Assembly (NCBI GenBank): GCA_018268455.1
Contig: JAFDWM010000021.1
Location: 1 to 32,102 of the forward strand
Reading direction: 5' to 3'
From: Actinomycetota bacterium
Lineage (GTDB): Bacteria; Actinomycetota; Actinomycetes; Actinomycetales; Microbacteriaceae
DNA: 32,102 bases
The notes under the pieces were generated by a model, which was given only the letters and a program-made list of their open reading frames with translations, made no database searches and was not told where the DNA came from. The position numbers and the translations under genes are program-made. Below, one piece after another: positions 1-31,054 of this stretch (the first letter of the stretch is position 1; each line of letters opens with the position of its first letter).

Positions 1-1571
1 CCGCCGGACAGACGGTACCCGCGCTCCCCGACGACGGTGTCATAGCCGTCCTCGAAGCCGGCGATGACGTGGTGGATGTTCGCCGCCGTGCACGCCGCGA
101 CAAGCTCGGCGTCGGTCGCGTCGGGCTTGGCGTAGAGCAGGTTCTCGCGGATGGTGGCGTGGAACAGGTACGTCTCCTGGGACACGATGCCGATCTCATC
201 GATGATCGACTCCTGCGTCAGGCCGCGCACATCGGCGCCGTCGAACATGACCGATCCGCTCGTCGCCTCGTACAGCCGCGGCGCCAGATAAAGGATCGTC
301 GTCTTGCCCGCCCCCGACGGCCCCACGAAGGCGACCTGCTGGCCCGGCTCGGCGGTGAACGACAGGCCCTGCAGAGTGTCCCTCGCCGCGGGCGCCGAGT
401 CCGGATAGCGGAAGCGCACGTCGCGGAACTCGATGAGACCGCGCGGGCCGGGAGCCGCGGGGGCCCCGATCGCGCCCGGTGCGTCGGTGATCTGCGGCAC
501 CATGTCGAGGTACTCGAAGATCCGGGCGAACAGCGCCTGCGAGGTCTGCACGTCGAGGGCGACGCGCATGAGCCCGATGAGCGGCATGAGCAGACGGGCC
601 TGCACCGTGGTGAAGGCGACGATGGCTCCGGCGGAGATGGATCCGGTGCCGCCCGCGACGAGGAACCCGGCCACCAGGTAGATGATCGCCGGCACGCTGG
701 ACATGAGCACCGACACCACGGCGAAGAAGCCCTGGCCGCTCATGGCCGTGCGCACCTGCAGTCGGATCTGCGTGCGGTTCTGCGCCTGATAGCGCGCCGA
801 CTCCGAGCGCTGCCTGTTGAACGACTTCGACAGCAGGATCCCCGACACGCTCAGCGTCTCCTGCGTGATCGCAGTGAGCTCGGACAGCGACTCCTGGGTC
901 TCACCGGCGATGCGCGCCCGCACCTGGCCGACGCGACGCTGCACCAGCACGAGGATCGGCATGACGCAGACCGCGATGAGGGTGAGCCGCCAGTCCAGCA
1001 GGATCATCGCGACGAGCGAGGCGATCACGGTCACCGTGTTGCCCAGGATGCTCGTGACCGTGCTCGTGAGCACGCCGGAGACCCCGCCGACGTCGTTCTG
1101 CAGCCGGGACTGGATCACACCCGTCTTCGTCCGGGTGAAGAATCCGAGCTCCATCGACTGCAGGTGCTCGAACAGGCGCACGCGCAGATCGCCGGTGACG
1201 CTGTTGCCGACCGTCGAGGTGAGCCAGGTCTGCAACACGCCGAGCCCGGAGGACAGCAGGTACAGCCCGATCATCGACACGACCAGCACGACCAGCAGAC
1301 CGAGCTGGGGACTCGCCCCGCCCACAGGGAACAGGGCGTCGTCGAACACCTTCTGCACGAGCAGGGGCGGGATCACACCCAGCGCGGCGCCGAGGATGAC
1401 GAGAATCCCGGTCATGATGATCCGGCCGCGATAGGGCCGGAACAGGGCGATCACGCGGCGGCCCAGATCGGGGACCTTCGGCGCCTGCGCGTTCAGCCTG
1501 CGCTGGGCCGCCTCGTCCACCGGCCGTCCGCCCCCGCGGCCTCCGCCGCCCATCCTGCCCATCATGCTCAT
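1..1571 (-). CDS. ABC transporter, fused permease/ATPase (3' end outside window)
   Basis: Half-transporter of the exporter (type IV ABC) class: an N-terminal six-helix membrane domain (about residues 45-340) fused to a nucleotide-binding domain. The ATPase shows Walker A GPSGAGKTT near residue 415, a Q-loop in VSQETYLF, and the window edge falls just as the signature motif begins (LSGG). Walker B and the H-loop lie outside. The N-terminus is Gly/Arg/Met-rich (MSMMGRMGGGG). Start chosen at ATG 1571 because AGGAGG sits seven bases upstream (1579-1584). It probably works as a homo- or heterodimer exporting lipids, peptides or drugs; the substrate cannot be told. It diverges from the MFS exporter at 1851. 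Confidence 0.93.
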   Translation of the reverse strand, partial: MSMMGRMGGGGRGGGRPVDEAAQRRLNAQAPKVPDLGRRVIALFRPYRGRIIMTGILVILGAALGVIPPLLVQKVFDDALFPVGGASPQLGLLVVLVVSMIGLYLLSSGLGVLQTWLTSTVGNSVTGDLRVRLFEHLQSMELGFFTRTKTGVIQSRLQNDVGGVSGVLTSTVTSILGNTVTVIASLVAMILLDWRLTLIAVCVMPILVLVQRRVGQVRARIAGETQESLSELTAITQETLSVSGILLSKSFNRQRSESARYQAQNRTQIRLQVRTAMSGQGFFAVVSVLMSSVPAIIYLVAGFLVAGGTGSISAGAIVAFTTVQARLLMPLIGLMRVALDVQTSQALFARIFEYLDMVPQITDAPGAIGAPAAPGPRGLIEFRDVRFRYPDSAPAARDTLQGLSFTAEPGQQVAFVGPSGAGKTTILYLAPRLYEATSGSVMFDGADVRGLTQESIIDEIGIVSQETYLFHATIRENLLYAKPDATDAELVAACTAANIHHVIAGFEDGYDTVVGERGYRLSG

Positions 1572-1743
1572 CGAGCAGCCTCCTGCCTCGACCGTGCGCG
1601 CCGTCGCCCGGCCTGCGGTAAGCGTACGTCCCGCCGGGGACGCCGCGTCGCGCACGCGCATCGCGTCCGCTGACGGCGCAATGGATCCGGATCCGCCCGC
1701 GCCGGGACCGGATCCACCTGCTCGGGAATGGAATGTCCGAGCC

Positions 1744-1749
1744 TATGGT
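1744..1749 (+). promoter_or_regulatory. Putative -10 box of the MFS exporter gene
   Basis: TATGGT matches the actinobacterial TANNNT -10. It implies a 5' leader of about 95 nt before the start at 1851. The leader holds two short GC-rich hairpins (GCCGC-ctctt-GCGGC and GCCGC-gcttct-GCGGC), which could be an attenuator or just composition. The rest of the 1572-1850 gap holds only the ribosome-binding site of the divergent ABC gene and a possible -10 (TACGCT, 1626-1621) for it. Confidence 0.45.
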
Positions 1750-1850
1750 TACCCTGAAAGTCGCTTGCCGCCTCTTGCGGCCGACACCGCTCCCGCGGAC
1801 GCCGCCGCGCTTCTGCGGCTTCCCCCTCGAAGCACTTCCCGGAGGAAAGC

Positions 1851-3356
1851 ATGACCACCGCACGAACCGATTCGATCACCGTGGAAGACATGACCGCAGC
1901 AGACGCGAAAGCCGCATCCGGCCTCATCCCGCGGCGCGACATGGCCGTGATCTGGGTGTTGCTCGCGGCGGCCTTCGTCGCGATCCTCAACGAGACCACG
2001 ATGGGCATGGCGATCCCGCACCTCATCGATGACCTGTCGATCACGCCGCTGGCCGCGCAGTGGGTGACCAGCGCGTTCATGCTCACGATGGCCGTCGTGA
2101 TCCCCACGACCGGCTTCCTGCTCCAGCGCTTCACGACCCGGCAGATGTTCCTCGGGGCTCTCAGCCTGTTCTCCGCGGGAACGCTGATCGCCGCGCTCGC
2201 GCCGGGATTCACCGTGCTGCTCGTCGCGCGCGTCGTGCAGGCCTCGGGAACGGCCATCATGATGCCGCTGCTGATGACCACGCTGATGAATCTGGTCCCT
2301 GCCGTCAGCCGCGGCCGGATGATGGGCAGAGTCAGCATCGTCATGTCGCTGGCCCCGGCGATCGGGCCGACCCTGTCCGGCTTCCTGCTGGATCACTTCA
2401 GCTGGCGCTCCATCTTCGTCGTGGTGCTGCCGATCGCCCTCGTCGCGACTCTCATCGGCTGGCGTTGGCTGACGAACGTCGGCGAGCGCACCCAGGCACC
2501 GCTCGACGTGACGTCGATCGTGCTGAGCGCGTTCGGCTTCGGAGGGCTCGTGTTCGGGCTCAGCCAGATCGGGGCGCTCGCCGGAGGCGGCGGTTCCCCG
2601 CTCCCGCTGATCGTCTCGCTGGCGGTCGGCGTGGTCGGACTGGTCGCGTTCCTCTGGCGTCAGGTGCTCCTGCAGCGCAAGGACGACGCGCTCCTCGACC
2701 TGCGCGTCTTCCACTCGCGCGACTTCACGCTGTCGATGGTGCAGATGTTCCTGCTGTCGCTGGCGTTCTTCGGCACCCTCACCGTGATCCCGCTGTTCCT
2801 GCAGAAGGCGCTCGACCTCGAGACCACGGAGGCGGGGCTCGTCGTCCTGCCCGGCGCGCTCGCGATGGGTCTGCTCGGTCCGGTGATCGGCCGCATCTAC
2901 GACGCCCGCGGCACGAAGATCCTGCTGATCCCCGGATCCATCCTCACTGCGGCGACGTTGTGGCTGTACACGACGCTCACGACCAGCACGCCGGTCTGGA
3001 TCGTGCTCGTCGCGCAGACCCTGCTGTCCATCGGCCTCGCACTGTCGTTCACGCCGCTGTTCACGGCCTCACTGGCGTCGTTGACGCCGAAGTTCTACTC
3101 CTACGGCAGCGCGGTGATCGGCACCGTGCAGCAGGTCGCCGGCGCCGCGGGCATCGCCGTGATGATGGCGGTGTTCACGCTGATCGTGAACGCGAACGGC
3201 GGCACCGAGGTGCCCGAGGCGATCGCCGCGGGCTCACGCGTCACGTTCGTGATCGGCGCCGTCATCGCGACGGTGACGATCGTCGGCGCGTTCGTGATCC
3301 GCAAGCCGGAGGACCAGCCGGACGAGGCGGGCGTCGCCGCGTCCGCGATGCACTGA
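1851..3356 (+). CDS. MFS multidrug exporter, DHA2 (EmrB/QacA/LmrB-like) family
   Basis: 501-residue integral membrane protein with about 14 hydrophobic segments, the length and helix count of the DHA2 drug:H+ antiporters. A soluble N-terminus of about 30 residues precedes the first helix (AVIWVLLAAAFVAILNETTM). The motif-C-like stretch of helix 5 (IVMSLAPAIGPTLSGFLLD) and the following FSWRSIF, typical of EmrB relatives, are both present. Start at ATG 1851 is supported by GGAGG at 1840-1844. Likely exports hydrophobic toxic compounds using the proton gradient; the substrate is unknown. Divergent to an ABC exporter, so the two may form an efflux locus, but no regulator gene sits with them. Confidence 0.93.
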   Translation: MTTARTDSITVEDMTAADAKAASGLIPRRDMAVIWVLLAAAFVAILNETTMGMAIPHLIDDLSITPLAAQWVTSAFMLTMAVVIPTTGFLLQRFTTRQMFLGALSLFSAGTLIAALAPGFTVLLVARVVQASGTAIMMPLLMTTLMNLVPAVSRGRMMGRVSIVMSLAPAIGPTLSGFLLDHFSWRSIFVVVLPIALVATLIGWRWLTNVGERTQAPLDVTSIVLSAFGFGGLVFGLSQIGALAGGGGSPLPLIVSLAVGVVGLVAFLWRQVLLQRKDDALLDLRVFHSRDFTLSMVQMFLLSLAFFGTLTVIPLFLQKALDLETTEAGLVVLPGALAMGLLGPVIGRIYDARGTKILLIPGSILTAATLWLYTTLTTSTPVWIVLVAQTLLSIGLALSFTPLFTASLASLTPKFYSYGSAVIGTVQQVAGAAGIAVMMAVFTLIVNANGGTEVPEAIAAGSRVTFVIGAVIATVTIVGAFVIRKPEDQPDEAGVAASAMH

Positions 3357-3365
3357 CGCGGCGTG

Positions 3366-3560
3366 TCAGTGCTCGTCGGCGCGGACGGCCGCGCCGGGCA
3401 GACGGCACACGCCGCCGATGCAGAGACCGCCGGCGTCGGCATCGAGTCCAGCCAGGGATGCGAGACCGGACGGGGCCGAGAGCGCGGTCGGCGCGGATCC
3501 CGGAGTCGGGCGCTCGGCGCTCGGCGGGATCTGGGGTGCGGACTCTGCTGCGATGGGCAT
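3366..3560 (-). CDS. Small hypothetical protein with a C-terminal Cys pair (64 aa)
   Basis: Reads MPIAAESAPQIPP at the N-terminus, is rich in Ala/Pro/Ser, and ends in a segment with two cysteines (GLCIGGVCRLPG). No family recognised with certainty. Two things argue it is real. A TAGCAT -10 box (3572-3567) lies exactly six bases before the ATG, the spacing seen at many leaderless genes here. It also fits the convergent gap after the MFS gene, leaving only nine bases between stop codons. No signal peptide or membrane helix. The Cys pair could bind metal or form a disulfide; that is inference. Confidence 0.58.
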   Translation of the reverse strand: MPIAAESAPQIPPSAERPTPGSAPTALSAPSGLASLAGLDADAGGLCIGGVCRLPGAAVRADEH

Positions 3561-3742
3561 TCCTCGATGCTACGCCGGTCCGCGTCGGCCGGCGCCGGAA
3601 GCGGTGCGCGAGCGCCTGGGGCATCTGCCTCGATATCGCGCGAAACCGTTCCCCGCGGCGTCACCGAGGCGTAGTCTGCGGGCGGGTCTTGGGGCTCGGC
3701 CCGTCTTCACGACGCCCCGCGCGGACGTGAAGGAGCATCCCG

Positions 3743-4315
3743 ATGATCATCAGCACTCCGCCTGTTGAGGGCGCGGACGGCCACGTCGCGGAGATGTACG
3801 CCGAGGACCTGGACGGTGACGGATTCGTGTTCGGCTACACGCGGGCCATGGCGGTGAATCCCGACGCCCACGCCGCCTTCATGGCGCTGATCCGCGCGAT
3901 CGTGCCCTCGATCGGCGTCGGCGTCTACGAGGCGGCGACGCTCGGAGCGGCACGCGCGATCGGATCCCCGCACTGCCTGCTCGCACACGGGCGCAAGGCG
4001 CTGCGTGCGGATGTGCTCGACGACGACGGCCTCGCCGCATTCGCGGTCGGCGACGACCGCGGCTTCAGCGTCGCAGAGCAGGCGGTGATCCGCTACGCCG
4101 CGAAGCTGTCATCGGATCCGGGCGGGATGGATGACGGCGATGCCCAGGCGCTGCGCGACGGGGGCTTCGATGATCGCCAGATCGTGGACATCACCCTCGC
4201 CGCAGCCGCGCGGAACTACTTCAGCCGTGCGCTGCTCGCCCTCGCCGTGCCGACGGACGATGTGCCGGGGCTGGATCCGCGGACCACTGCGGCGCTCCTG
4301 CGCAGCACCGTCTGA
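3743..4315 (+). CDS. Carboxymuconolactone decarboxylase / AhpD-like family protein
   Basis: 190-residue all-helical protein of the CMD/AhpD superfamily. The conserved core is visible: Glu63 in VYEAATLG and then SPHCLLAHG, giving Cys78-x3-His82. The first cysteine of the classical CxxC pair is replaced by Ser75, as in the SxxC subgroup, so a thioredoxin-like AhpD peroxidase cycle through a CxxC disulfide is not possible. A peroxidase-related or unknown single-Cys function is more likely. Start at ATG 3743 follows AAGGAG with an eight-base spacer. A TAGTCT box at 3672-3677 would give a leader of about 58 nt. Confidence 0.85.
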   Translation: MIISTPPVEGADGHVAEMYAEDLDGDGFVFGYTRAMAVNPDAHAAFMALIRAIVPSIGVGVYEAATLGAARAIGSPHCLLAHGRKALRADVLDDDGLAAFAVGDDRGFSVAEQAVIRYAAKLSSDPGGMDDGDAQALRDGGFDDRQIVDITLAAAARNYFSRALLALAVPTDDVPGLDPRTTAALLRSTV

Positions 4316-4851: not shown

Positions 4852-5442
4852 ATGCTCAAACGCCTCGCCGCCCGCGTGTTCTGGACGTTCAGCCGCTGGT
4901 CGCTCGCGAGCGATCCGGCCCCGACACGACCCACGGTGCTCATCGGGGCTCCGCATACCTCGAACTGGGATTTCGTGCTCATGCTCGGCATCGCCTGGAG
5001 GCTCGGCATCGACGTGCACTGGCTGGGGAAGAAGAGCCTGTTCCACGGCTGGCGCGGCCCGATCATGCGCCGCCTCGGCGGCATCCCCGTGGACCGTGCG
5101 GATCCCGCCCGCGTCGTCGGCGAGGTCGTCGCCCAGATCCACGACGGCACCGTGTTCGGCCTGGTCGTGACTCCGGACGGCACCCGCGGCGGCAACGAGT
5201 ACTGGAAGAGCGGCTTCTACCGCATCGCCCGAGAGACGGGCATGCCGGTGACGCTCGGGTACGTCGATCGCACCACGATGACGACCGGTCTGGGACCGAC
5301 CATCGAGCTCACCGGCGACGTCGCCGCGGACATGGACGTGATCCGTGCGTTCTACGCCGACAAGGCGGGCGTGCGTCCGGAGCGACGCACCGAACCGCGG
5401 CTGCGCGAGGAGGAGGCGAGGGGGCTCAACCCAGCCCCGTGA
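4852..5442 (+). CDS. PlsC-like 1-acyl-glycerol-3-phosphate acyltransferase family protein
   Basis: 196 residues with the catalytic H-x4-D motif of glycerolipid acyltransferases, HTSNWD (His35, Asp40). The later TPDGTRGG stretch stands in for the EGTR substrate-phosphate motif, with Glu replaced by Asp. It would transfer an acyl chain to a lysophospholipid or a related acceptor at the membrane. Start chosen at ATG 4852: TACGGT (4839-4844) lies seven bases upstream, in the leaderless pattern, whereas the GTG at 4819 has no such support. The 3' end overlaps the convergent DUF1345 gene by 17 bp. Confidence 0.86.
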   Translation: MLKRLAARVFWTFSRWSLASDPAPTRPTVLIGAPHTSNWDFVLMLGIAWRLGIDVHWLGKKSLFHGWRGPIMRRLGGIPVDRADPARVVGEVVAQIHDGTVFGLVVTPDGTRGGNEYWKSGFYRIARETGMPVTLGYVDRTTMTTGLGPTIELTGDVAADMDVIRAFYADKAGVRPERRTEPRLREEEARGLNPAP

Positions 5443-6090: not shown

Positions 6091-6915
6091 TCACGCCGCG
6101 GAACGATCGGGCTGGCAGTGCGGGCAGTACTGTGCGGAGGCGCCGGAGAACACGCGGTCGACGATCGTCGTGCCGCAAACGGGGCAGGCCTCGCCGCCGC
6201 GCCCGTGCACGGCCATCGCGGCGACCTTCGCCTGCTTGAGCTGGTCGGGCGGCAGTCCTCGCCGATCCGCGAGCGCGCCGCGCAGCACGTCGACCGTGGC
6301 GTGGAAGAGGCGTTCCCGGTCCGCATCGTCGAGCGCCGCGGCGTGCACCACGGGCGGGATCTTCGCGCGGTGCAGGATCTCGTCGGAGTAGGCGTTGCCG
6401 ATGCCCGCGAACGACGTCTGCTCCTGCAGCAGCGCCTTGATCTGCTTGCGCCGGCTGCCGAGCGCCCGGTCGAACGCATCGCGGTCGAAGTCCGCGGCGA
6501 GCGGATCCGGCCCGAGTGCGGCGATGCCCGACGCATCGGTCGGCGCATCGACGACCGACGCGGTCACCGCGAGGAAATCGCCCAGGTCGACGACCTGCAT
6601 CACGGCACCGTCGTCGAGCGCGATCCGCGCGATCTCGGGGACGGACTCGTCACTCGGCTGATCTTCCGGGGCGGTCCAGCGGATCCAGCCGTTGCGTCCG
6701 AATCCGATCATCAGCCAGCCCGCGTCGGTGTCGAGGCCCACGTGCTTGCCGAAGCGCTCCAGGCGGCGGATCCGTGCCCCGATCAGCGAGCTGGGCGGAC
6801 GATTGCGAGTCTTGACGACGCGGAACTCGCCGACATCCAGGTCAGCGATCGCACGACCGCGGATCCGTTCATCGAGGAATTCGACGAGCGCCTGCACCTC
6901 CGGGGACTCGGGCAT
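6091..6915 (-). CDS. Fpg/Nei family DNA glycosylase
   Basis: 274 residues, the normal length for formamidopyrimidine/endonuclease VIII glycosylases. Catalytic Pro2-Glu3 follow the initiator Met (MPESPEV). The H2TH-type helix region (LLQEQTSFAGIGNAYSDEIL) and a C-terminal four-Cys zinc finger (Cys244, 247, 264, 267) are intact. It should excise oxidised bases and nick the abasic site by beta/delta elimination. The PESPE start differs from PELPE (Fpg) and PEGDT (Nei), so substrate preference is unclear. The gene follows the alpha/beta hydrolase by 45 bases. A degenerate box GAGGAT sits in the leaderless position. Confidence 0.93.
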   Translation of the reverse strand: MPESPEVQALVEFLDERIRGRAIADLDVGEFRVVKTRNRPPSSLIGARIRRLERFGKHVGLDTDAGWLMIGFGRNGWIRWTAPEDQPSDESVPEIARIALDDGAVMQVVDLGDFLAVTASVVDAPTDASGIAALGPDPLAADFDRDAFDRALGSRRKQIKALLQEQTSFAGIGNAYSDEILHRAKIPPVVHAAALDDADRERLFHATVDVLRGALADRRGLPPDQLKQAKVAAMAVHGRGGEACPVCGTTIVDRVFSGASAQYCPHCQPDRSAA

Positions 6916-6960
6916 GAGGTCATCCTCGCACCGACCCCAGACACGCGGGGTGCGCGAGCA

Positions 6961-7539
6961 TCAGTCCCAGGCGAGGTAGTCCTCGATCGCGAACGCCGTG
7001 TCGACGGGGTCACTGACCGGGAACAGGTGGCCACCGCCGTCGATCGTGACGATGCTCGCGCGCTCCGGCAGTTCCGCCTGCAGCTTCTCGCCGTTCGCGG
7101 CAGGGGTCACGTCGTCGTCGGATCCTTGGATGATGAGCACCGGCACCGCGGGCGCGATCGGCACGTCGACGTCCTCGACTCCGAGCAGCAGCACGCCCAG
7201 CGCCCGATCGGTGCGCTTCGCGGAGAGCGCGCGGGCGACGGTGCCGCCGACGCTGTGGCCGCCGATCCAGGTCGCACCGATGCCGACGTGGTCCATCACG
7301 TCGCTCGCGTCCTGTACGCGCTGGTCGAACGTGACCTGGTCGCCCTCATCCGCGGCGCGCGATCCGATGCGCAGCACGCGGATCCCCTCACCGGCGAGGA
7401 TGTGCGCGACGGAGCCCAGCGCCCCGCCCTCGAGTCCGCGACCGGGGATCAGCACCAGCGCGGGTCCGTCACCCTCCGACATCTCGTCGACATAGGTGAT
7501 GGCGCGGCCGTCGGGCTCGAAGATGCTGTTCTGAGTCAC
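6961..7539 (-). CDS. Small alpha/beta hydrolase
   Basis: 192 residues with the nucleophile elbow GHSVGG (Ser96), the acid region VLIIQGSDDD, and a late His in DGGGHLF, a complete Ser-Asp-His triad. It belongs to the dienelactone hydrolase/thioesterase-like small serine hydrolases; the substrate is unknown. No signal peptide, so cytoplasmic. Start at GTG 7539 is fixed by TACGAT (7551-7546) with a six-base spacer, indicating a leaderless mRNA. It diverges from the VOC gene at 7628, also leaderless. Confidence 0.87.
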   Translation of the reverse strand: MTQNSIFEPDGRAITYVDEMSEGDGPALVLIPGRGLEGGALGSVAHILAGEGIRVLRIGSRAADEGDQVTFDQRVQDASDVMDHVGIGATWIGGHSVGGTVARALSAKRTDRALGVLLLGVEDVDVPIAPAVPVLIIQGSDDDVTPAANGEKLQAELPERASIVTIDGGGHLFPVSDPVDTAFAIEDYLAWD

Positions 7540-10450: not shown

Positions 10451-10483
10451 TCAGTTCGAATAGCGGAACTCGACCACGTCGCG
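10451..10483 (-). repeat. Displaced copy of the ychF 3' tail (outermost copy)
   Basis: Read on the minus strand this gives RDVVEFRYSN and a TGA stop. The intact ychF ends GDVVEFRFNV and TGA, so the two match residue for residue in the same distance from the stop. DNA identity is strongest at GAACTCGACCACGTCGC (16 of 17 bases). A weaker second match, ACGCTGAAGCGGAA at 10423-10436, lies next to it, echoing the paired copies at 12114 and 12136. Marks the outer edge of the low-GC patch. Confidence 0.6.
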
Positions 10484-10548
10484 GCGGTTAGCAAACCTCT
10501 CGACGCGCCAATACGCCCTGCTTCAGCAGGCGTTGCACACCGCCAGCG

Positions 10549-10584
10549 TTGCACCCAATAGGCGTATACGTCTATATTATCTCC
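10549..10584 (+). promoter_or_regulatory. Leaderless padR promoter with an 18-bp palindromic operator
   Basis: A -35 TTGCAC (10549-10554) and a -10 TATATT (10573-10578) are 18 bases apart, and the GTG start at 10585 is six bases after the -10. The palindrome ATAGGCGTATACGTCTAT (10558-10575) fills the spacer and runs into the -10, with a single mismatched pair. This is where an autorepressing PadR dimer would bind. A direct repeat GCGTTGCAC occurs at 10530-10538 and 10546-10554. Confidence 0.6.
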
Positions 10585-11145
10585 GTGCCCACGAACGCGC
10601 TCCACAGCAAGTTGTCGCTGCCCATCCTGGGGCTCCTCCTCGAACAGGCGGACCACCCGTATGGGCTCACCTCGCGCCTGAACGATCGCTACCGACACCT
10701 CCACGCCTCCCGCAGCAGCATCACCACCCTCGCCAAGTCGCTGGCCGACGCCGACCTGATCGCGCCACGCGCGCCCGAACGTGCAGGAAACCGGCCCCCG
10801 CGGACGGTCTACGACCTCACTGAGGTCGGCGTCACACATCTGCGGCAGCGCATCGAGGAAATCATCCGCACCGCGCCCGCCATGAATACTGACTTCGTCA
10901 CGGCGCTCGCATATATCGGCCTCCTCGGCAAGCGATTAGCTGGAGACGCCGTCGACGAGAGAGCCAGTCGAATCCGGCAGGAGATTGGCGCTCTCAAAGA
11001 AGTCCCCACCGCAATCGCCGAGATCAAAATGATCGAGGTCGACTACTGGCTGCGCATGCTCACGTCGGAAGCGATCTGGCTCGAGGAGTTCGGTGCCCGA
11101 ATTGAAACTGGACGCATCGAATGGATTGGAGACAAACCAGAATGA
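10585..11145 (+). CDS. PadR-family transcriptional regulator
   Basis: 186 residues. The N-terminal winged helix follows the PadR pattern: LPILGLLLEQADHPYGLTSR, recognition region SSITTLAKSLADADLI, and wing RPPRTVYDLTEVG. The C-terminal half is the helical dimerisation domain. It probably represses its own operon and is released by a small ligand. GTG 10585 is chosen over the ATG at 10549 because the -10 and the palindrome lie between them. Its TGA overlaps the ATG of the next gene (ATGA), so the two are translationally coupled. Lower GC than the chromosome around it. Confidence 0.87.
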   Translation: MPTNALHSKLSLPILGLLLEQADHPYGLTSRLNDRYRHLHASRSSITTLAKSLADADLIAPRAPERAGNRPPRTVYDLTEVGVTHLRQRIEEIIRTAPAMNTDFVTALAYIGLLGKRLAGDAVDERASRIRQEIGALKEVPTAIAEIKMIEVDYWLRMLTSEAIWLEEFGARIETGRIEWIGDKPE

Positions 11146-12146
11146 AGTACGGCGTCTACGTCGCTGGCCGCGCCGGCACCACCAGCGCCAAGCCGGACAG
11201 CGCTAGAATGATCGGTTCTGCCGTCGACGACCTCACTGACGGGTCTCCGCACGTCATCCGTGAGTACATCCACTTTCTAGGTGCCGATCCGGACCCCGAT
11301 ATCGTCCATTCGCTCGGTGCAGAAGATGAGCTCGTCAGCCTCACCATGCCGGATGATTGGTACCTCGAGAACGGACGAGAACTGGACCTCGTGGTCAGCT
11401 ATCTCCCCTTAGCTGAGGACATTCCCGGATGGCTCATGTTTCTCGATACCGTCCTGCATCGCTACGGGCACATCGTCCGGTACTTCCAAGTGACCCTGGA
11501 ACCGAATTTCCCGATCCCCTTTATCGACGGGAGTTCGCCGGGAGTCATGGAAGCCCTCATACGGGGACTGCCCCACGCAAAGCGAGCTGCACCAGCAACC
11601 GTGCAGGTTGGCTTCTCGGTCGCTGAGCCAGCCGAGTGGCTGGGAGGCGATGACAAGTTCTGGCAGACGCTTGCGAGCCTGCCCGCAGAGCAGTTCGCCG
11701 ACCACGTCGACTATGTCGGTCTCGGCCTCTACCCCGATGCCTTCTCACCCACTCCGCCAGAAGCCGTTCCAGTGCTCACTGAGAATGCGGTACGACTCCT
11801 TCGCCTGCGCAGCCTCGCTACAGCGAAAATTCCCAGGCGGATACCCATCCACATCGCGGAGTTCGGCTCACCGAGCGGAGACGGCAGAACAGCAGCCACG
11901 CAGGCCCGGTCGATCACTGACATGGTGGCAACGCTCGAGCGCATCGCAGAAGAACTCAACGTCACGGTGTGCGAGTACTTCGGGCTCCGCGACGCGGACA
12001 CGTCAGGCGGACAAGCGGTCGGAACTTTTGGCCTGCTTGATGACGACTACACCCGCAAAGACTCGTTCGACGTCTATCGAAGCATCATCAGAGCCGAATT
12101 CTCCGGCAGGGACCAGACGTTGAACCGTAACTCGACTAGACGTTGA
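11142..12146 (+). CDS. TIM-barrel protein resembling clan GH-A glycoside hydrolases
   Basis: 334 residues, no signal peptide, so cytoplasmic. Features of a clan GH-A barrel are visible: RYFQVTLEPNFP with Glu120 in the acid/base position after strand 4, YVGLGLYPDAF after strand 6, IPIHIAEFGSPSG with Glu240 in the nucleophile position after strand 7, and a closing GLLDDDYTRKDSFDVYRSII like the strand-8 region of such enzymes. The 120-residue spacing of the two glutamates is normal. The exact family is not recognised; beta-glycosidase activity is inference. Coupled to padR by an ATGA overlap. Its last nine codons run through a ychF-tail repeat, so the native C-terminus may have been altered. Confidence 0.7.
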   Translation: MKYGVYVAGRAGTTSAKPDSARMIGSAVDDLTDGSPHVIREYIHFLGADPDPDIVHSLGAEDELVSLTMPDDWYLENGRELDLVVSYLPLAEDIPGWLMFLDTVLHRYGHIVRYFQVTLEPNFPIPFIDGSSPGVMEALIRGLPHAKRAAPATVQVGFSVAEPAEWLGGDDKFWQTLASLPAEQFADHVDYVGLGLYPDAFSPTPPEAVPVLTENAVRLLRLRSLATAKIPRRIPIHIAEFGSPSGDGRTAATQARSITDMVATLERIAEELNVTVCEYFGLRDADTSGGQAVGTFGLLDDDYTRKDSFDVYRSIIRAEFSGRDQTLNRNSTRR

Positions 12147-12162
12147 AACGGAATTCCACCAC
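12114..12162 (-). repeat. Two tandem ychF 3'-tail copies
   Basis: Copy one, CAGACGTTGAACC at 12114-12126, is identical over 13 bases to the sequence at the ychF stop codon (13350-13362). Copy two at 12136-12162 encodes HVVEFRFNV and a TAG stop on the minus strand, equal to the ychF terminus apart from one residue; AGACGTTGAA is shared exactly (12138-12147 and 13351-13360). Both lie in the same orientation as ychF. They overlap the 3' end of the GH-A-like gene. Confidence 0.65.
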
Positions 12163-12273
12163 ATGCCCACAGGTACCAACCTCCGGGGACAGGCCGGTCA
12201 CTTCTTGCTCGCAGAGGTTACGCAGTGACACCTCCGCACGAGTTTCATCACCGTTAGCTGTCAGCCGCGGCAC
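12136..12273 (-). CDS. Short ORF ending in a ychF-like tail (45 aa)
   Basis: From GTG 12273 the frame runs to a TAG at 12136. It begins MPRLTANGDETRAEVSLRN, has two Cys, and finishes with HVVEFRFNV, the ychF C-terminus. The composition is protein-like rather than shadow-like. It overlaps the end of the GNAT pseudogene by 20 bases. Most likely it is the remains of a longer gene joined to a displaced ychF tail at an insertion junction. No promoter or clear ribosome-binding site. Confidence 0.35.
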   Translation of the reverse strand: MPRLTANGDETRAEVSLRNLCEQEVTGLSPEVGTCGHVVEFRFNV

Positions 12274-12625
12274 CGCGGCGCGCCGCCGGCCTACGTCTCA
12301 GCAGAACGCCCTCGCCGCCAGTGAACTCGATGCGCGCGAATGTCGCTGCTCTTCCCACTTCTTCGAATCCGAGCGCCTCGTAGAGCCTGATCGACGCAAG
12401 GTTCTGCGCATTGATCACACTGAAGACCGGCTCCTCGGCGGAACTCACGATCGATCTCCGCGACGGACAGCACCGGCAGCCGCTCAATGAGCCCGCGAAC
12501 CCGCTCGCGATACTCGTCGATGTCGCCACCACGCGTTGCCATCACAACGGACAGCGCATGTACATCGGCGGGAGTCGCCGGCCGAATGCTGACAGCTTCG
12601 CCCGCACGCTGAGCCGCGCCAATGG
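12254..12625 (-). pseudogene. GNAT acetyltransferase gene with an internal deletion and frameshift
   Basis: The upstream frame (opening after a TGA at 12628-12626) reads AVSIRPATPADVHALSVVMA, a typical GNAT N-terminus, and continues to about VAEIDREF. The C-terminal part, SVINAQNLASIRLYEALGFEE onward, is in another frame and ends at 12254. A GNAT of about 170 residues is expected; the acetyl-CoA binding centre (R/Q-x-x-G-x-G/A) between the two pieces is missing, with only about 100 codons left. No in-frame start with a ribosome-binding site. Inactive. It directly follows higA. Confidence 0.72.
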
Positions 12626-12644
12626 CTCACAAGCCACGAGTCAG

Positions 12645-12965
12645 TCACGCGACCTTCAATGGTGTGATCTCGGCGATCTTGTCGCGCAGCGCCCGGCGCT
12701 CGAGGCGCAGCTCGTAGTTGGACTGCAGGTTCATCCAAAACTCCTCAGATGTGCCGAAGTAACGCGCAAGGCGGATCGCCGTATCCGCCGTGACCCCCCG
12801 CTTGCCATGCACGATCTCGTTGATCCGGCGCGGCGGAACGCCGATCGATACGGCCAGCTTGTTCTGCGTGATCCCGAAGCCGTTGATGAAGTCCTCCATG
12901 AGGATCTCCCCCGGGTGGATCGGCTCGATCAGCCCCATCTCAGTGGTAGTCGACGAGTTCGACAT
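12645..12965 (-). CDS. higA: HigA-family antitoxin
   Basis: 106 residues of the Xre/HigA type: IHPGEILMEDFINGFGITQN leads into the helix-turn-helix (LAVSIGVPPRRINEIVHGKR), followed by the conserved TADTAIRLARYFGTSEEFWMNLQ segment. It would neutralise HigB and, with it, repress the operon. Start at ATG 12965 follows GGAGG with an eight-base spacer and lies inside the 3' end of higB (26-base overlap), so toxin precedes antitoxin, the usual higBA order. The promoter-proximal palindrome is at 13231. Confidence 0.93.
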   Translation of the reverse strand: MSNSSTTTEMGLIEPIHPGEILMEDFINGFGITQNKLAVSIGVPPRRINEIVHGKRGVTADTAIRLARYFGTSEEFWMNLQSNYELRLERRALRDKIAEITPLKVA

Positions 12966-13221
12966 CTTCCGCACCTCCATTTCTCCAGACGAAGCAGACA
13001 CGCCACTGCACGTTCACACGGATGCTGTGCTGACCACGACGATCACCAGTCAGTCGCTCCAGCCGATTTCCCGGCGGGATCCGAAGATCCTCGACATCCT
13101 TGGCCGCGTGGATCAGCTCGAGCTTGCGCAGCGTGGCCCGCTGCACCACTCGATCAACGCCCTTGACGTACTGCTCATGCCAGATGCGTTCGGTTTCTCT
13201 GCTTCCGAACGATCTGATCAC
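12940..13221 (-). CDS. higB: HigB-family toxin (RelE-like mRNA interferase)
   Basis: 93 residues, full length for HigB. Hallmarks are MIRSFGSRETERIW at the start, RATLRKLELIHAA in the middle helix, RLERLTGDRRGQHSIRVN and WRVCFVWRNG with the final strand VELVDYH. HigB cuts mRNA on the translating ribosome and is held by HigA. Start at GTG 13221: the TATAAT box (13233-13228) is six bases upstream, so the mRNA is leaderless at the toxin. The neighbouring ATG at 13223 is followed at once by a stop and is not used. Confidence 0.93.
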   Translation of the reverse strand: MIRSFGSRETERIWHEQYVKGVDRVVQRATLRKLELIHAAKDVEDLRIPPGNRLERLTGDRRGQHSIRVNVQWRVCFVWRNGGAEDVELVDYH

Positions 13222-13227
13222 ATGAGA

Positions 13228-13267
13228 ATTATATAACGTGAAGCGTCATTAACGCTATGCGTTATAT
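13228..13267 (-). promoter_or_regulatory. higBA promoter and 37-bp palindromic operator
   Basis: The consensus -10 TATAAT (13233-13228) overlaps a palindrome at 13231-13267 whose outer arms are ATATAACG/CGTTATAT and inner arms AGCGT/ACGCT, centred at 13249. Two stacked half-site pairs over the promoter are what a HigA dimer or HigBA complex would occupy for autorepression. Confidence 0.75.
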
Positions 13268-13310
13268 CCGATCACGCCGGTGTCGTATAAAAGCCAAGCC
13301 GGTTCAGCGC

Positions 13311-13344
13311 GTTTCGTCTCGCTTCGCTCGCTCAACGACCGGGG
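13311..13344. repeat. Dispersed GC-rich intergenic repeat next to the ychF stop
   Basis: The stretch containing TCTCGCTTCGCTCGCTCAAC followed by GACCGG, five bases from the ychF stop, resembles a short repeat that I recall being scattered between genes in Microbacterium-like genomes. Only one copy is seen in this window, so the repeat claim rests on memory. Confidence 0.4.
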
Positions 13345-13348
13345 TGGG

Positions 13349-14422
<1,074 letters not shown>

Positions 14423-25135: not shown

Positions 25136-26434
25136 ATGACCGTCTTCGAAGCCGCTCCCGGCGAGGCTCCGCCCGCCGACGCCGTCTCCCCGCGAGAGTC
25201 CACGCCCGACGCTCCCACGTCGATCGCGCGGCTGAACGCCACGATCCGCGACTTCGTGGCGCAATGGGGAACGGTCTGGGTCGAGGGCGAGATCACGAGC
25301 TGGAACCTGCGCGCAGGCAACGTGTTCGCGCGACTCAAGGACACCCGCTCCGACGCGCAGATCTCCATCCGCGTGTGGTCGAGCGTGCGCGCACGGATCC
25401 CGGCAGACCTCGCCGTGGGCGATCACGTGGTCGCGGCCGTCAAGGCCGATTACTTCGTGAAGGCCGGCGATTTCAGCTTCACCGTGTCGGCGATGAAGCA
25501 CGTCGGCCTCGGTGACCAGCTCGAGCGGCTCGAGCGGCTGCGCGCGCAGCTGCGTCAGGAAGGCCTGTTCGACCCCGCACGCAAGAAGCCCCTGCCGTTC
25601 CTGCCGCACGTGATCGGGCTCATCACCGGGGAGAACTCCGATGCGGAGAAGGATGTGCACCGCAACGCCGAGCTGCGCTGGCCGCAGGTGCGCTTCCGCA
25701 CCGTGCACGCCGCCGTGCAGGGCGACCGCTGCGTGCCGGAGACGCTCGCGGCGCTGAAGACGCTCGACGCGGATCCCGACGTCGACGTGATCGTCATCGC
25801 CCGCGGCGGCGGGGATCCGCAGACGCTGCTCGGCTTCAGCGATGAGCGGCTGGTGCGCGCCGTGGCCGCGGCGACGACCCCGGTCGTGAGCGCGATCGGG
25901 CACGAGAACGACCACCCTCTGCTCGATGATGTGGCCGACCTGCGCGCGTCCACTCCGACCGACGCGGCGAAGCGCGTGGTGCCCGACGTCGGTGAGCAGC
26001 GGGCGCTCATCGCTCAGCTGCGCTCGCGTGCCACCACCCGCGTCGCGCAGCGGGTCGCGCACGACATCGCGCAGCTCGAGCAGCTGCGCTCACGCCCCGT
26101 GCTGCGTGACCCGGATCCGCTCCTCGAACGTCGGGCGCAGGAGGTGTGGCTGCTCGCCTCGCGCTCCCGCGATGCCCTCGGCCGCACGGTCGACCGTGCG
26201 GGCCGGCGCACCGCGGAGCTGCGCGCCTCGCTGCGTGCGCTGTCCCCGGCCGCGACGCTCGCCCGCGGGTACGCGATCGCGCACCGGGACGACGGCGTGA
26301 TCGTGCGCGATGCTGCGGATGCCCCGGCCGGCACGGCCCTCACCCTCACCGTCGACCGTGGGTCGCTCCGCGCGGTGTCGGAGGGCGAGGTCGCCGAGGC
26401 CGCGGCGGCGGACCGCCCGGGTGCGCGTCGGTAG
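25136..26434 (+). CDS. xseA: Exodeoxyribonuclease VII large subunit
   Basis: 432 residues. N-terminal OB fold (VWVEGEITSWNLRAGNVFAR), catalytic domain with GLITGENSDAEKDVHRNAEL and VIVIARGGGDPQTLLGFSDE, then SAIGHENDHPLLDDVADLRA and a long coiled-coil C-terminus. With XseB it degrades single-stranded DNA to oligonucleotides. A TATCCT box (25104-25109) gives a leader of about 20 nt. A two-codon frame (ATG CGA TGA from 25131) overlaps the xseA ATG. The TAG stop lies inside the -10 box of xseB. Confidence 0.96.
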   Translation: MTVFEAAPGEAPPADAVSPRESTPDAPTSIARLNATIRDFVAQWGTVWVEGEITSWNLRAGNVFARLKDTRSDAQISIRVWSSVRARIPADLAVGDHVVAAVKADYFVKAGDFSFTVSAMKHVGLGDQLERLERLRAQLRQEGLFDPARKKPLPFLPHVIGLITGENSDAEKDVHRNAELRWPQVRFRTVHAAVQGDRCVPETLAALKTLDADPDVDVIVIARGGGDPQTLLGFSDERLVRAVAAATTPVVSAIGHENDHPLLDDVADLRASTPTDAAKRVVPDVGEQRALIAQLRSRATTRVAQRVAHDIAQLEQLRSRPVLRDPDPLLERRAQEVWLLASRSRDALGRTVDRAGRRTAELRASLRALSPAATLARGYAIAHRDDGVIVRDAADAPAGTALTLTVDRGSLRAVSEGEVAEAAAADRPGARR

Positions 26435-29689: not shown

Positions 29690-31054
29690 TCAGCTGAGCT
29701 CGTTGCCCTCCAGCAGCTCGGTCACGAGCGCGGCGATGGCGGAGCGCTCCGAACGCTGCAGGGTGACATGGCCGAAGAGGCTGTGACCCTTCAGCGTCTC
29801 GATCACGCTGGCGATGCCGTCGTGGCGCCCCACGCGCAGGTTGTCGCGCTGGCCCACGTCGTGGGTGAGCACGACGCGCGAGTTCTGCCCCATCCGACTC
29901 AGCACCGTGAGCAGCACGTTGCGCTCGAGCGACTGGGCCTCGTCGACGATCACGAAGGCGTCGTGCAGCGAACGCCCGCGGATGTGCGTGAGCGGCAGCA
30001 CCTCGAGCAACCCGCGCCCGATGACCTCCTCCATCACATTGCCGGAGACGACGGATCCGAGGGTGTCGAAGACCGCCTGCCCCCACGGGCTCATCTTCTC
30101 GTCCCTGTCACCGGGCAGGTAGCCGAGCTCCTGCCCGCCGACGGCGAACAAAGGGCGGAACACGATGATCTTCTTCTGCTGCTGCCGCTCCAGCACGGCC
30201 TCCAGTCCCGCGCATAGAGCGAGGGCCGACTTTCCGGTGCCGGCGCGGCCTCCGAGCGAGACGATGCCGACCTCGGGGTCGGTCAGCAGGTCGATCGCGA
30301 TGCGCTGCTCGGCCGAGCGCCCGTGCAGCCCGAACACCTCACGGTCGCCGCGCACGAGCGCGTACTCTCCGTCGCCCGTGACGCGTCCGAGGGCGGATCC
30401 GCGCTCGGAGTGGATGATGAGGCCCGTGTTCACCGGGAGCCCGATCGCCTCGTCACTCGTGCCCACCTCGCTCTCGTAGAGGTCGCTCATCTCGTCGCCG
30501 GAGAGCGAGATGGAGCTGATGCCGGTCCACCCCGAGTCCACCGCCTGCTCGGCGAGGTACTCCTCGGCGTTGATGCCGAGCGACGCGGCCTTGACCCGCA
30601 TCGGCAGATCCTTGGACACGACCGTGACGTCCTGCCCCGCCTGCGCGAGGTGCATGGCCACGGCGAGGATCCGGCTGTCATTGTCGCCGAGCCGGATGCC
30701 GCTGGGCAGCACGGTCTGGTCGGTGTTGTTCAGCTCGACGCGCAGGGTGCCGCCGTCGCCGATCGGGACCGGGAAGTCGAGCCGTCCGTACTCGACGCGC
30801 AGCTCGTCGAGGTGGCGCAGGGCCCGCCGGGCGAAGTAGCCGAGCTCGGGATCGTGCCGTTTGCCCTCGAGCTCGCCGATCACGACGACGGGCAGGACGA
30901 TGGAGTGCTCGGCGAAGCGGAAGAACGCCTGCGGATCAGACAGCAGCACGGACGTGTCGAGCACGTACGTCTTCAGAGCCTGGTCGGGCGTTGCACCTCC
31001 CCCGTCGACGGTGCTCGTGCGGGTGCTGCTCTTCAGTGCGGTGCGTGCGGCCAC
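29690..31054 (-). CDS. PIN-PhoH fusion ATPase (PhoH2 type)
   Basis: 454 residues. An N-terminal PIN nuclease domain starts at [14 protein letters not shown] (Asp33) and includes [15 protein letters not shown] with further acidic residues. A linker domain follows, then the PhoH ATPase with Walker [14 protein letters not shown] and Walker [10 protein letters not shown]. In mycobacteria PhoH2 is an ATP-dependent RNA helicase and ribonuclease. Start set at GTG 31054, after GGGAGAGG and with TAGCAC (31089-31084) as a possible -10. In-frame codons up to 31264 would cross that promoter and run into the aminotransferase gene. Confidence 0.92.

Follow-up and report, generated by a model that had tools for sequence, protein, structure and literature searches.

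Arrays of small gene cassettes bounded by ychF tails in Actinobacteria

Described gene-capture systems and the ychF locus

One class of mobile DNA comprises elements with a tyrosine integrase that integrate into the 3' ends of protein genes and leave the end of the gene restored. Cis-mobilizable elements accrete in tandem beside integrative and conjugative elements and are mobilised in trans. Integrons, which are known mainly from Gram-negative bacteria, carry attC sites with RYYYAAC/GTTRRRY boxes that are recombined as folded single strands, and clusters of attC sites lacking an integrase are termed CALIN. The present analysis concerns the DNA behind ychF in a 32,102-nucleotide stretch of a Microbacteriaceae genome (the window; contig JAFDWM010000021.1 of assembly GCA_018268455.1), where small cassettes are separated by displaced copies of the ychF 3' end. 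This ychF-tail cassette array was probably built by site-specific recombination, and the enzyme was most likely a tyrosine integrase supplied in trans.

The closest kin of the ychF arrays are gene-tail-targeting elements and cis-mobilizable accretion, reduced to cassettes of about 1 kb. In gene-tail-targeting elements such as the phage contig L205, the satellite phage Mulchroom and the element of genome G488, a ychF tail lies beside the integrase gene. As in the arrays, the gene end is restored and the old end displaced (in G488 the displaced ychF end lies on the far side of the element). However, those elements encode an integrase and many genes, whereas no tyrosine integrase was found in the cassettes; the island of locus L068, which does encode one, is an exception and not a cassette of the ychF-array type. 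Cis-mobilizable accretion shares with the arrays integrase-less, att-flanked units stacked at one gene end. It differs in that ychF units measure about 1 kb, mostly contain one or two genes and form arrays of up to 12 sites, with cassettes and sites common to several actinobacterial orders.

The ychF arrays work like an integron or a cassette-accretion system, but they are not integrons. The likeness lies in tandem small cassettes, each closed by a recombination site, in one orientation on a fixed platform, and in a cargo of GNAT acetyltransferases, toxin-antitoxin pairs and many genes without a family. Unlike integrons, the arrays were found without IntI, their platform is the 3' end of a housekeeping gene, their site consists of ychF coding sequence plus a 24-bp flank, and their cargo open reading frames (ORFs), regulators included, lie on both strands.

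Among the open-access literature matches listed, a scope outside which most subscription papers and preprints fall, no description of ychF-tail arrays was present. The passages of one paper that concern a pneumococcal prophage place it between dnaN and ychF at a 14-bp attB, where it alters the promoter (PMC6375853). Going by those passages, the prophage adjoins ychF as the arrays do, but it lies upstream of the gene rather than at its 3' end, and its attB is unrelated. The same source, in the part on gene deletion, reports that loss of ychF did not impair pneumococcal growth (PMC6375853). The first-pass annotation of the window had described integration into the end of an essential gene; the ychF end as the site stands, but the word essential does not sit well with that report. 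In a study of mycobacterial prophages the term 'GTP' is absent from the main text, the attB table being in the supplement and outside that text (PMC10654092).

The 49-bp site and the movement of cassettes

The site is 49 bp long and consists of a 24-bp cassette-side left flank followed by the last 25 nt of ychF. Three parts can be distinguished: between the left half and the right half, the latter formed by the last codons of ychF, lies a near-invariant core (GGTGGAGTTCCG). Left-flank types such as AGAGGTTGGTCCGTGCCGGAACTC are conserved among cassettes and unlike ychF, with a median left-flank score of 19.3 bits in cassettes against 4.0 in native ychF. The repeat had been described from the window alone as a ychF tail, which is right for one part of it, but the cassette-specific left flank belongs to it too. 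A model trained on the very loci scanned with it found 114 displaced sites of at least 14 bits in 44 of 80 loci, against 0 such positions among 1,251,381 reversed and as many reverse-complement positions of those loci. Two earlier and cruder scores were less clean in the controls: a 33-nt matrix gave two reverse-complement positions of at least 14 (14.8 and 16.6), and with a 24-nt score, 43 forward positions reached at least 36, as did 3 reverse-complement and 0 reversed ones.

An inverted repeat pairs positions -8 to -3 with 6 to 11 around 8 bp. Among 192 displaced sites, 102 have at least five of the six pairs; among 87 native sites, none does. Judged from its bases, this layout would be that of a tyrosine-recombinase core. 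A doubled right half-site, searched for with a motif that was written after examples had been seen, directly follows 22 of 279 sites (16 displaced, 6 native; seven loci apparently duplicating those of the genus excluded) and 0 of 7513 control positions.

The point of exchange was approached through pairs of sites with homologous surroundings, which are not independent of one another. The 37 pairs with homologous upstream DNA are alike from -24 to 0 and near background further right; the 138 pairs with homologous downstream DNA (73 of them native versus cassette) are at background to about -1 and alike from about +12. These profiles indicate that left halves remain with the upstream unit and right halves move with the downstream unit. 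In cassettes common to several genera, agreement begins at core position 0 at one site and ends after position 7 at the other. The comparisons point to an exchange within core positions 0-8, the first nine core bases being GGTGGAGTT, provided that the flanking differences are not point mutations.

Whole cassettes recur in different genera. A 1313-bp cassette with a TetR regulator and one further gene of no assigned family is 98.5-99.8% identical across four genomes, namely G038 (M. barkeri), Brachybacterium massiliense, a Brevibacterium metagenome-assembled genome and Nocardia farcinica. Another of about 1870 bp is 98.7% identical in the genus member G021, Thermocrispum municipale and Brachybacterium massiliense, and one of 1176 bp is 97.5% identical between G038 and Timonella senegalensis. 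Each of these cross-genus alignments begins and stops inside the two sites, accurate to 2 bp, and none extends into the flanks. Position in the array also varies: a 3.75-kb cassette (97.7% identical) lies directly behind ychF in G026 and further down the array in G148. The array was very probably formed by site-specific exchange at the ychF end. At the level of genome comparison, arrays, modular half-sites, breakpoints in the core, empty sites and recent transfer between genera, cassette by cassette, are all demonstrated.

The native ychF end is in frame in all 61 loci, and the stop is kept at the ychF stop position in 163 of 192 displaced tails, whose commonest end is VEFRFNV-stop (97). Empty sites, which the first-pass annotation had proposed to look for in relatives, are present. 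Locus L071 after its last displaced tail aligns with L076 after the intact ychF stop at 82% over 429 bp, the offsets being 12 and 12 bp; L140 aligns at 34 against 34 and 35 with L055 and L070, and L132 at 80 against 76 with L047. When 41 array loci were compared with 36 site-less loci, 31 gave some alignment; only the few pairs just listed were clean empty-site cases, the other alignments having different distances or shared cassettes. As syntenic anchors taken from the window, aidB and VOC occurred in no other locus, and small98 occurred at varying distances.

Among relatives, ychF was present in 198 of 198 genomes of the genus that were searched. Prevalence was counted in 60 relatives, taken as the best-ranked ychF matches without G123 and G124, with ychF and up to 16 kb downstream of it; 20 regions chosen for pattern matches were left out. 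A displaced site of at least 20 bits follows ychF in 24 of the 60, and two or more in 13, which bears out the earlier suggestion that the ychF 3' end is an insertion hot spot used more than once. In these relatives the same tail commonly bounds other cargo. Neither an invariant gene order at ychF nor a tail that proved to be the C-terminus of an unrelated intact gene was encountered, two outcomes that would have spoken against the suggestion. The longest arrays, that of G148 with 12 sites and that of G026 with 11, have every site on the ychF strand, and the median site-to-site spacing is 1183 bp (n=168).

Four cassettes in a row, identically ordered, are common to G148 and G026, and the arrays differ on both flanks of this block, so cassettes were gained or lost on either side. 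The idea of insertion at the ychF-proximal end, based on this pair, was dropped for the same reason. Contig C21 of genome G175 (loci L128 and L144) has a cassette site at 30554. XerD, RecN and CTP synthase are encoded on the same contig, and the 29.6 kb of it that were read contain no match to ychF; the site possibly represents an array away from ychF or an assembly effect.

Beyond the genus, the exact pattern occurred in 38 stretches of an 84,980-species collection, all Actinomycetota by record titles, in genera including Nocardia, Amycolatopsis, Nonomuraea, Propioniferax, Glutamicibacter, Rothia, Kocuria and Brevibacterium. In 27 of these 38 loci at least two displaced sites reach 22 bits, and Glutamicibacter ardleyensis has 8 sites of at least 18 bits within 8 kb. 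A plasmid search with the site returned one record, from Nocardia farcinica. An order-wide search with one whole cassette gave a near-full match in G1207 (its site spacings equal those of L190, seemingly the same record, and it was counted once), one 290-base match at 99% and otherwise mostly short matches; 18 of the 20 loci from this search contain a site of at least 22 bits.

Proposed mechanism, recombinase candidates and alternative explanations

In the proposed mechanism, a cassette with one site, presumably as a circle, would recombine with the site at the end of ychF. The right half of the cassette site would become the new in-frame end of ychF, and the old end would be displaced behind the cassette, joined to the cassette's own left half. 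Repeated insertion would produce an array, and the reverse reaction would release cassettes. The enzyme would most likely be a tyrosine integrase acting in trans, provided by phages, satellites or islands that likewise use the ychF tail.

No tyrosine integrase was detected in the cassettes with a hidden Markov model (HMM) built from integrases of the genus and run on ORFs from the window, from 60 relatives and from 24 additional stretches. Its two matches were the XerD of L144, beside CTP synthase and RecN, and the integrase of the L068 island. Likewise, PF00589 had no match within the array stretch in 16 of 16 array-bearing genomes. A resident serine recombinase was considered and rejected: PF00239 is present in 12 of 12 array-bearing genomes searched, with no match within the array stretches of any of the 12, and G164 has a single match, a short one of low significance (E 6.9e-6). 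For transposases and further classes of enzyme, the arrays were surveyed to the extent of the best 25 of 113 Pfam families matched.

Integrases adjoining ychF tails, a further thing that the first-pass annotation had proposed to look for, are present in phages, one satellite and a few chromosomes. In viral contigs, the strict cassette pattern had 0 matches and the ychF-type pattern 7. In the satellite phage Mulchroom (OQ784832.1), 34 of 36 bases of the ychF-tail query align at 94.1% at 7344-7377, adjoining the integrase gene at 6514-7269, and relatives of this integrase are encoded by the viral contigs L201, L202 and L207. The Mulchroom paper reports the integrase, and the terms ychF and attP are absent from its main text (PMC10690885). 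The phage contig L205 has terminase, portal and capsid genes and a 388-aa tyrosine integrase that ends 20 bp from a site, the left flank of which is of cassette type (14.1 bits; at least 14 bits was reached at 15 of 2,499,216 control positions).

Relatives of the L205 integrase at E 1e-40 or better occur in 15 of 398 genomes of the family, and of the 16 chromosomal matches 3 are no more than 0.33 kb away from the end of ychF. In G488 the integrase is broken and a displaced ychF end follows 12.4 kb further on; in G328 no displaced ychF end was present in 59.7 kb. A ychF tail is nearby in 2 of 30 further viral relatives (L248 and L269), in many of which the contig ends at the integrase, so that the site is invisible. 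In several cases (L251, L253, L256, L257, L258, L260 and L267), a relative of the L205 integrase adjoins what appears to be the end of a different gene, reading like ...FTNYR-stop, and the family may therefore specialise on the 3' ends of protein genes.

A second integrase type was seen in L068 (genome G083), where a rare integrase-bearing island 4.2-7.1 kb behind ychF encodes a 594-aa tyrosine integrase beside degenerate ychF tails. As a general engine this type was rejected as too rare, since a relative at E 1e-20 or better occurs in 1 of 398 family genomes. This one relative, in G349 (L232, 12082-13968), has a ychF-like tail 107 bp before its start (right half 26.8 bits), with no ychF in the 19.9 kb read. 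With such a tail beside the integrase in both genomes seen, this type also appears to be associated with the ychF tail.

Because integrases adjoin ychF tails in these elements and none was found in cassettes, trans-acting integrases are favoured. That ychF-targeting tyrosine integrases acting in trans move the cassettes is held with about even confidence. Several observations count against the proposed mechanism. The left flank of some displaced sites resembles that of ychF (5% quantile 2.3 bits). The stricter site pattern occurs in only 32 of 198 genus genomes (0 when read backwards) and, in a draw of 396 genomes across the phylum, the strict pattern was found in only 2, so that the distribution is patchy. 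No recombinase has been linked to arrays by experiment or co-occurrence. Among the integrase-bearing elements found, a left flank of cassette type is confined to L205, the left flanks of L269 (3.8 bits) and Mulchroom (-4.2) being of other type. L205 also has a serine recombinase ORF that starts 18 bp from the site, on the other side from the tyrosine integrase; the two recombinase ORFs and the site lie in the region 1386-4007. Finally, the complete array-bearing genome G164 has only two PF00589 matches, judged by rank to be XerC and XerD. The enzyme of that genome would then have to be transient, lost, XerC/XerD or of another kind.

It is conceivable, at a little under an even chance, that Actinobacteria have an integron-like gene-capture system of their own, which arose independently of IntI/attC, with the ychF end as fixed docking site, a portable ychF tail on each cassette, a host gene resealed upon every insertion and the recombinase supplied by passing phages and satellites. 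If so, the actinobacterial virosphere would be the shared engine of a gene-cassette pool. A cassette system active in many actinobacterial genera could explain the traffic of small accessory genes, such as toxin-antitoxin pairs, acetyltransferases, regulators and AbiD-like genes, between distant actinobacteria. It raises the testable question of whether arrays can be built and shuffled without a resident dedicated recombinase, via phage integrases in trans. The 49-bp site can serve as a marker for finding many more cassettes, and ychF emerges as a conserved housekeeping gene whose last codons are repeatedly replaced.

Several alternatives to trans-acting integrases were weighed. Foreign DNA, once taken up, might be exchanged by RecA-dependent homologous recombination, with the repeated tails and the conserved ychF flank as stretches of homology and with no need for a dedicated recombinase. 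Such exchange would suit tails that are direct repeats with about 25-49 bp in common, and cassettes in which no tyrosine recombinase was found. However, cross-genus transfers stop at the 49-bp sites with unrelated flanks on both sides, and homologous exchange would not need the 24-bp non-ychF left flank that is conserved across genera. This explanation is considered unlikely.

Each tail could instead be what is left of a separate, once complete island or prophage that carried an integrase at ychF and was later stripped of it and of most other genes. Insertion at ychF by elements with an integrase does occur (L068 and G488), and L068 has two degenerate tails that fall below the threshold of the 49-bp model. 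Nevertheless, the same or nearly the same length of near-identical integrase-less cassettes in different genera indicates that this form itself moves, and the median site spacing is only the 1183 bp given above. Independent remnants are considered quite improbable. The first-pass annotation had left the choice between remnants and cargo mobilised in trans; mobilisation in trans fits better, because integrase-less whole cassettes are near-identical between genera and end at sites.

A comparably low probability is given to movement of the cassettes by host XerC/XerD, as in other Xer-exploiting elements. The two Xer-like recombinases of the array-bearing G164 would be in keeping with it, but it leaves the phage integrases beside the same ychF tail unexplained. 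The site is presumably also unlike dif.

Ordinary integrons (IntI with attC) or integrase-less attC clusters are highly improbable as an explanation. Cassette anatomy is similar, as is the cargo of GNAT proteins, toxin-antitoxin pairs, glyoxalases and regulators. In addition, single-stranded cassette sites form somewhat more stable folds than their mononucleotide shuffles (mean -6.4 kcal/mol for the top and -6.2 for the bottom strand vs -4.4), the values for native sites being -5.3 and -4.2 vs -4.9 kcal/mol. However, no integrase gene was found with the arrays, the platform is ychF, half of the site is ychF coding sequence, and exchange falls inside the coding core. Tails as chance matches or unrelated C-termini can be dismissed as practically excluded, for a short VEFRF-like tail can arise by chance but the controls had 0 positions of at least 14 bits and cassette transfer is precise.

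The window locus and the cargo of the arrays

All sites of the window lie on the minus strand, in the orientation of ychF. The platform gene occupies 13349..14422 on that strand (YchF C-terminal domain PF06071, E 1.7e-38) and ends GDVVEFRFNV-stop, its final ~25 nt forming the right half of the attachment site. The native ychF-borne site spans 13349..13397 (minus; 39.4 bits) with a left flank of ychF type (3.8 bits), and from the breakpoint profiles its exchange region (core 0-8) would lie at ~13365-13373. Displaced site B, at 12136..12184 (minus; 50.4 bits), closes cassette 1 and opens cassette 2; its left flank is of cassette type (13.2 bits) and it reads GHVVEFRFNV-TAG. Displaced site D, at 10451..10499 (minus; 30.2 bits; left flank 10.4 bits, cassette type), ends cassette 2 and reads RDVVEFRYSN-TGA, with VEFRYSN-stop as its right half and a left-flank subtype that is also that of the L191 site at 4879. 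Both displaced tails, at 12136 and 10451, had been recognised before. A 13-base match at 12114 that had been noted beside them is a real second half-site, C, at 12113..12135 (minus; 27.1 bits), which abuts site B as a direct repeat of the right half-site and reads VELRFNV-W. Besides the native site and B, C and D, nothing on the minus strand of the window scores above zero with the 49-bp model. On the plus strand, 25441-25489 gives a weak match of 15.3 bits that is probably due to chance.

Cassette 1 carries three minus-strand features. The HigB toxin (12940..13221; PF05015, E 1.9e-18) has relatives of up to 92% identity in other loci, and the HigA antitoxin (12645..13001; HTH_3, E 5.5e-10) of up to 91.5%. 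A fragmentary GNAT acetyltransferase (12254..12545) consists of two overlapping ORFs, 12254-12532 and 12291-12545, and the first piece matches FR47 (E 1.5e-4). Stretches of 47-50 aa of this protein are 74-76% identical in other loci, and it is related to a 189-aa ORF adjoining HigBA in L033. Cassette 2 contains a PadR-like regulator on the plus strand (10549..11145; PF03551, E 9.3e-7). A 341-aa cargo ORF, also on the plus strand (11121..12146), had been called GH-A-like; it matches no Pfam family below E 0.1, and its 3' end crosses half-site C into site B. This cargo (PadR, the 341-aa protein, broken GNAT and HigBA) is as first described. Two other early observations on the window were reproduced: the patch is low in guanine plus cytosine (0.609 vs about 0.70), and the tyrosine-integrase HMM had no match among window ORFs of at least 80 aa. 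Directly 3' of ychF, at 13281-13345, lies a CCGGTCGTTGAGCGAGCGAAGCGAGACGAAA element, the start of which recurs behind ychF in L041, L090 and L141 and also follows displaced tails in L061 and L090. By its appearance the element is either a dispersed repeat or a terminator.

For the wider cargo, ORFs of 13 array loci were chosen by a simple script, and 147 of the 159 chosen entered the family scans. These 147 ORFs matched 113 Pfam families, the best 25 of which include HTH_3 (8 ORFs), TetR (7), short-chain dehydrogenases (6), GNAT (6), glyoxalases (5), PIN (4) and HigB (3). Families of phage packaging or helper hijacking were absent from these best 25. PADLOC matches in array ORFs include AbiD (2). 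HigBA is the commonest recurrent cassette, with the HigA cluster of the window present in 10 of 26 loci and its HigB cluster in 7 of 26.

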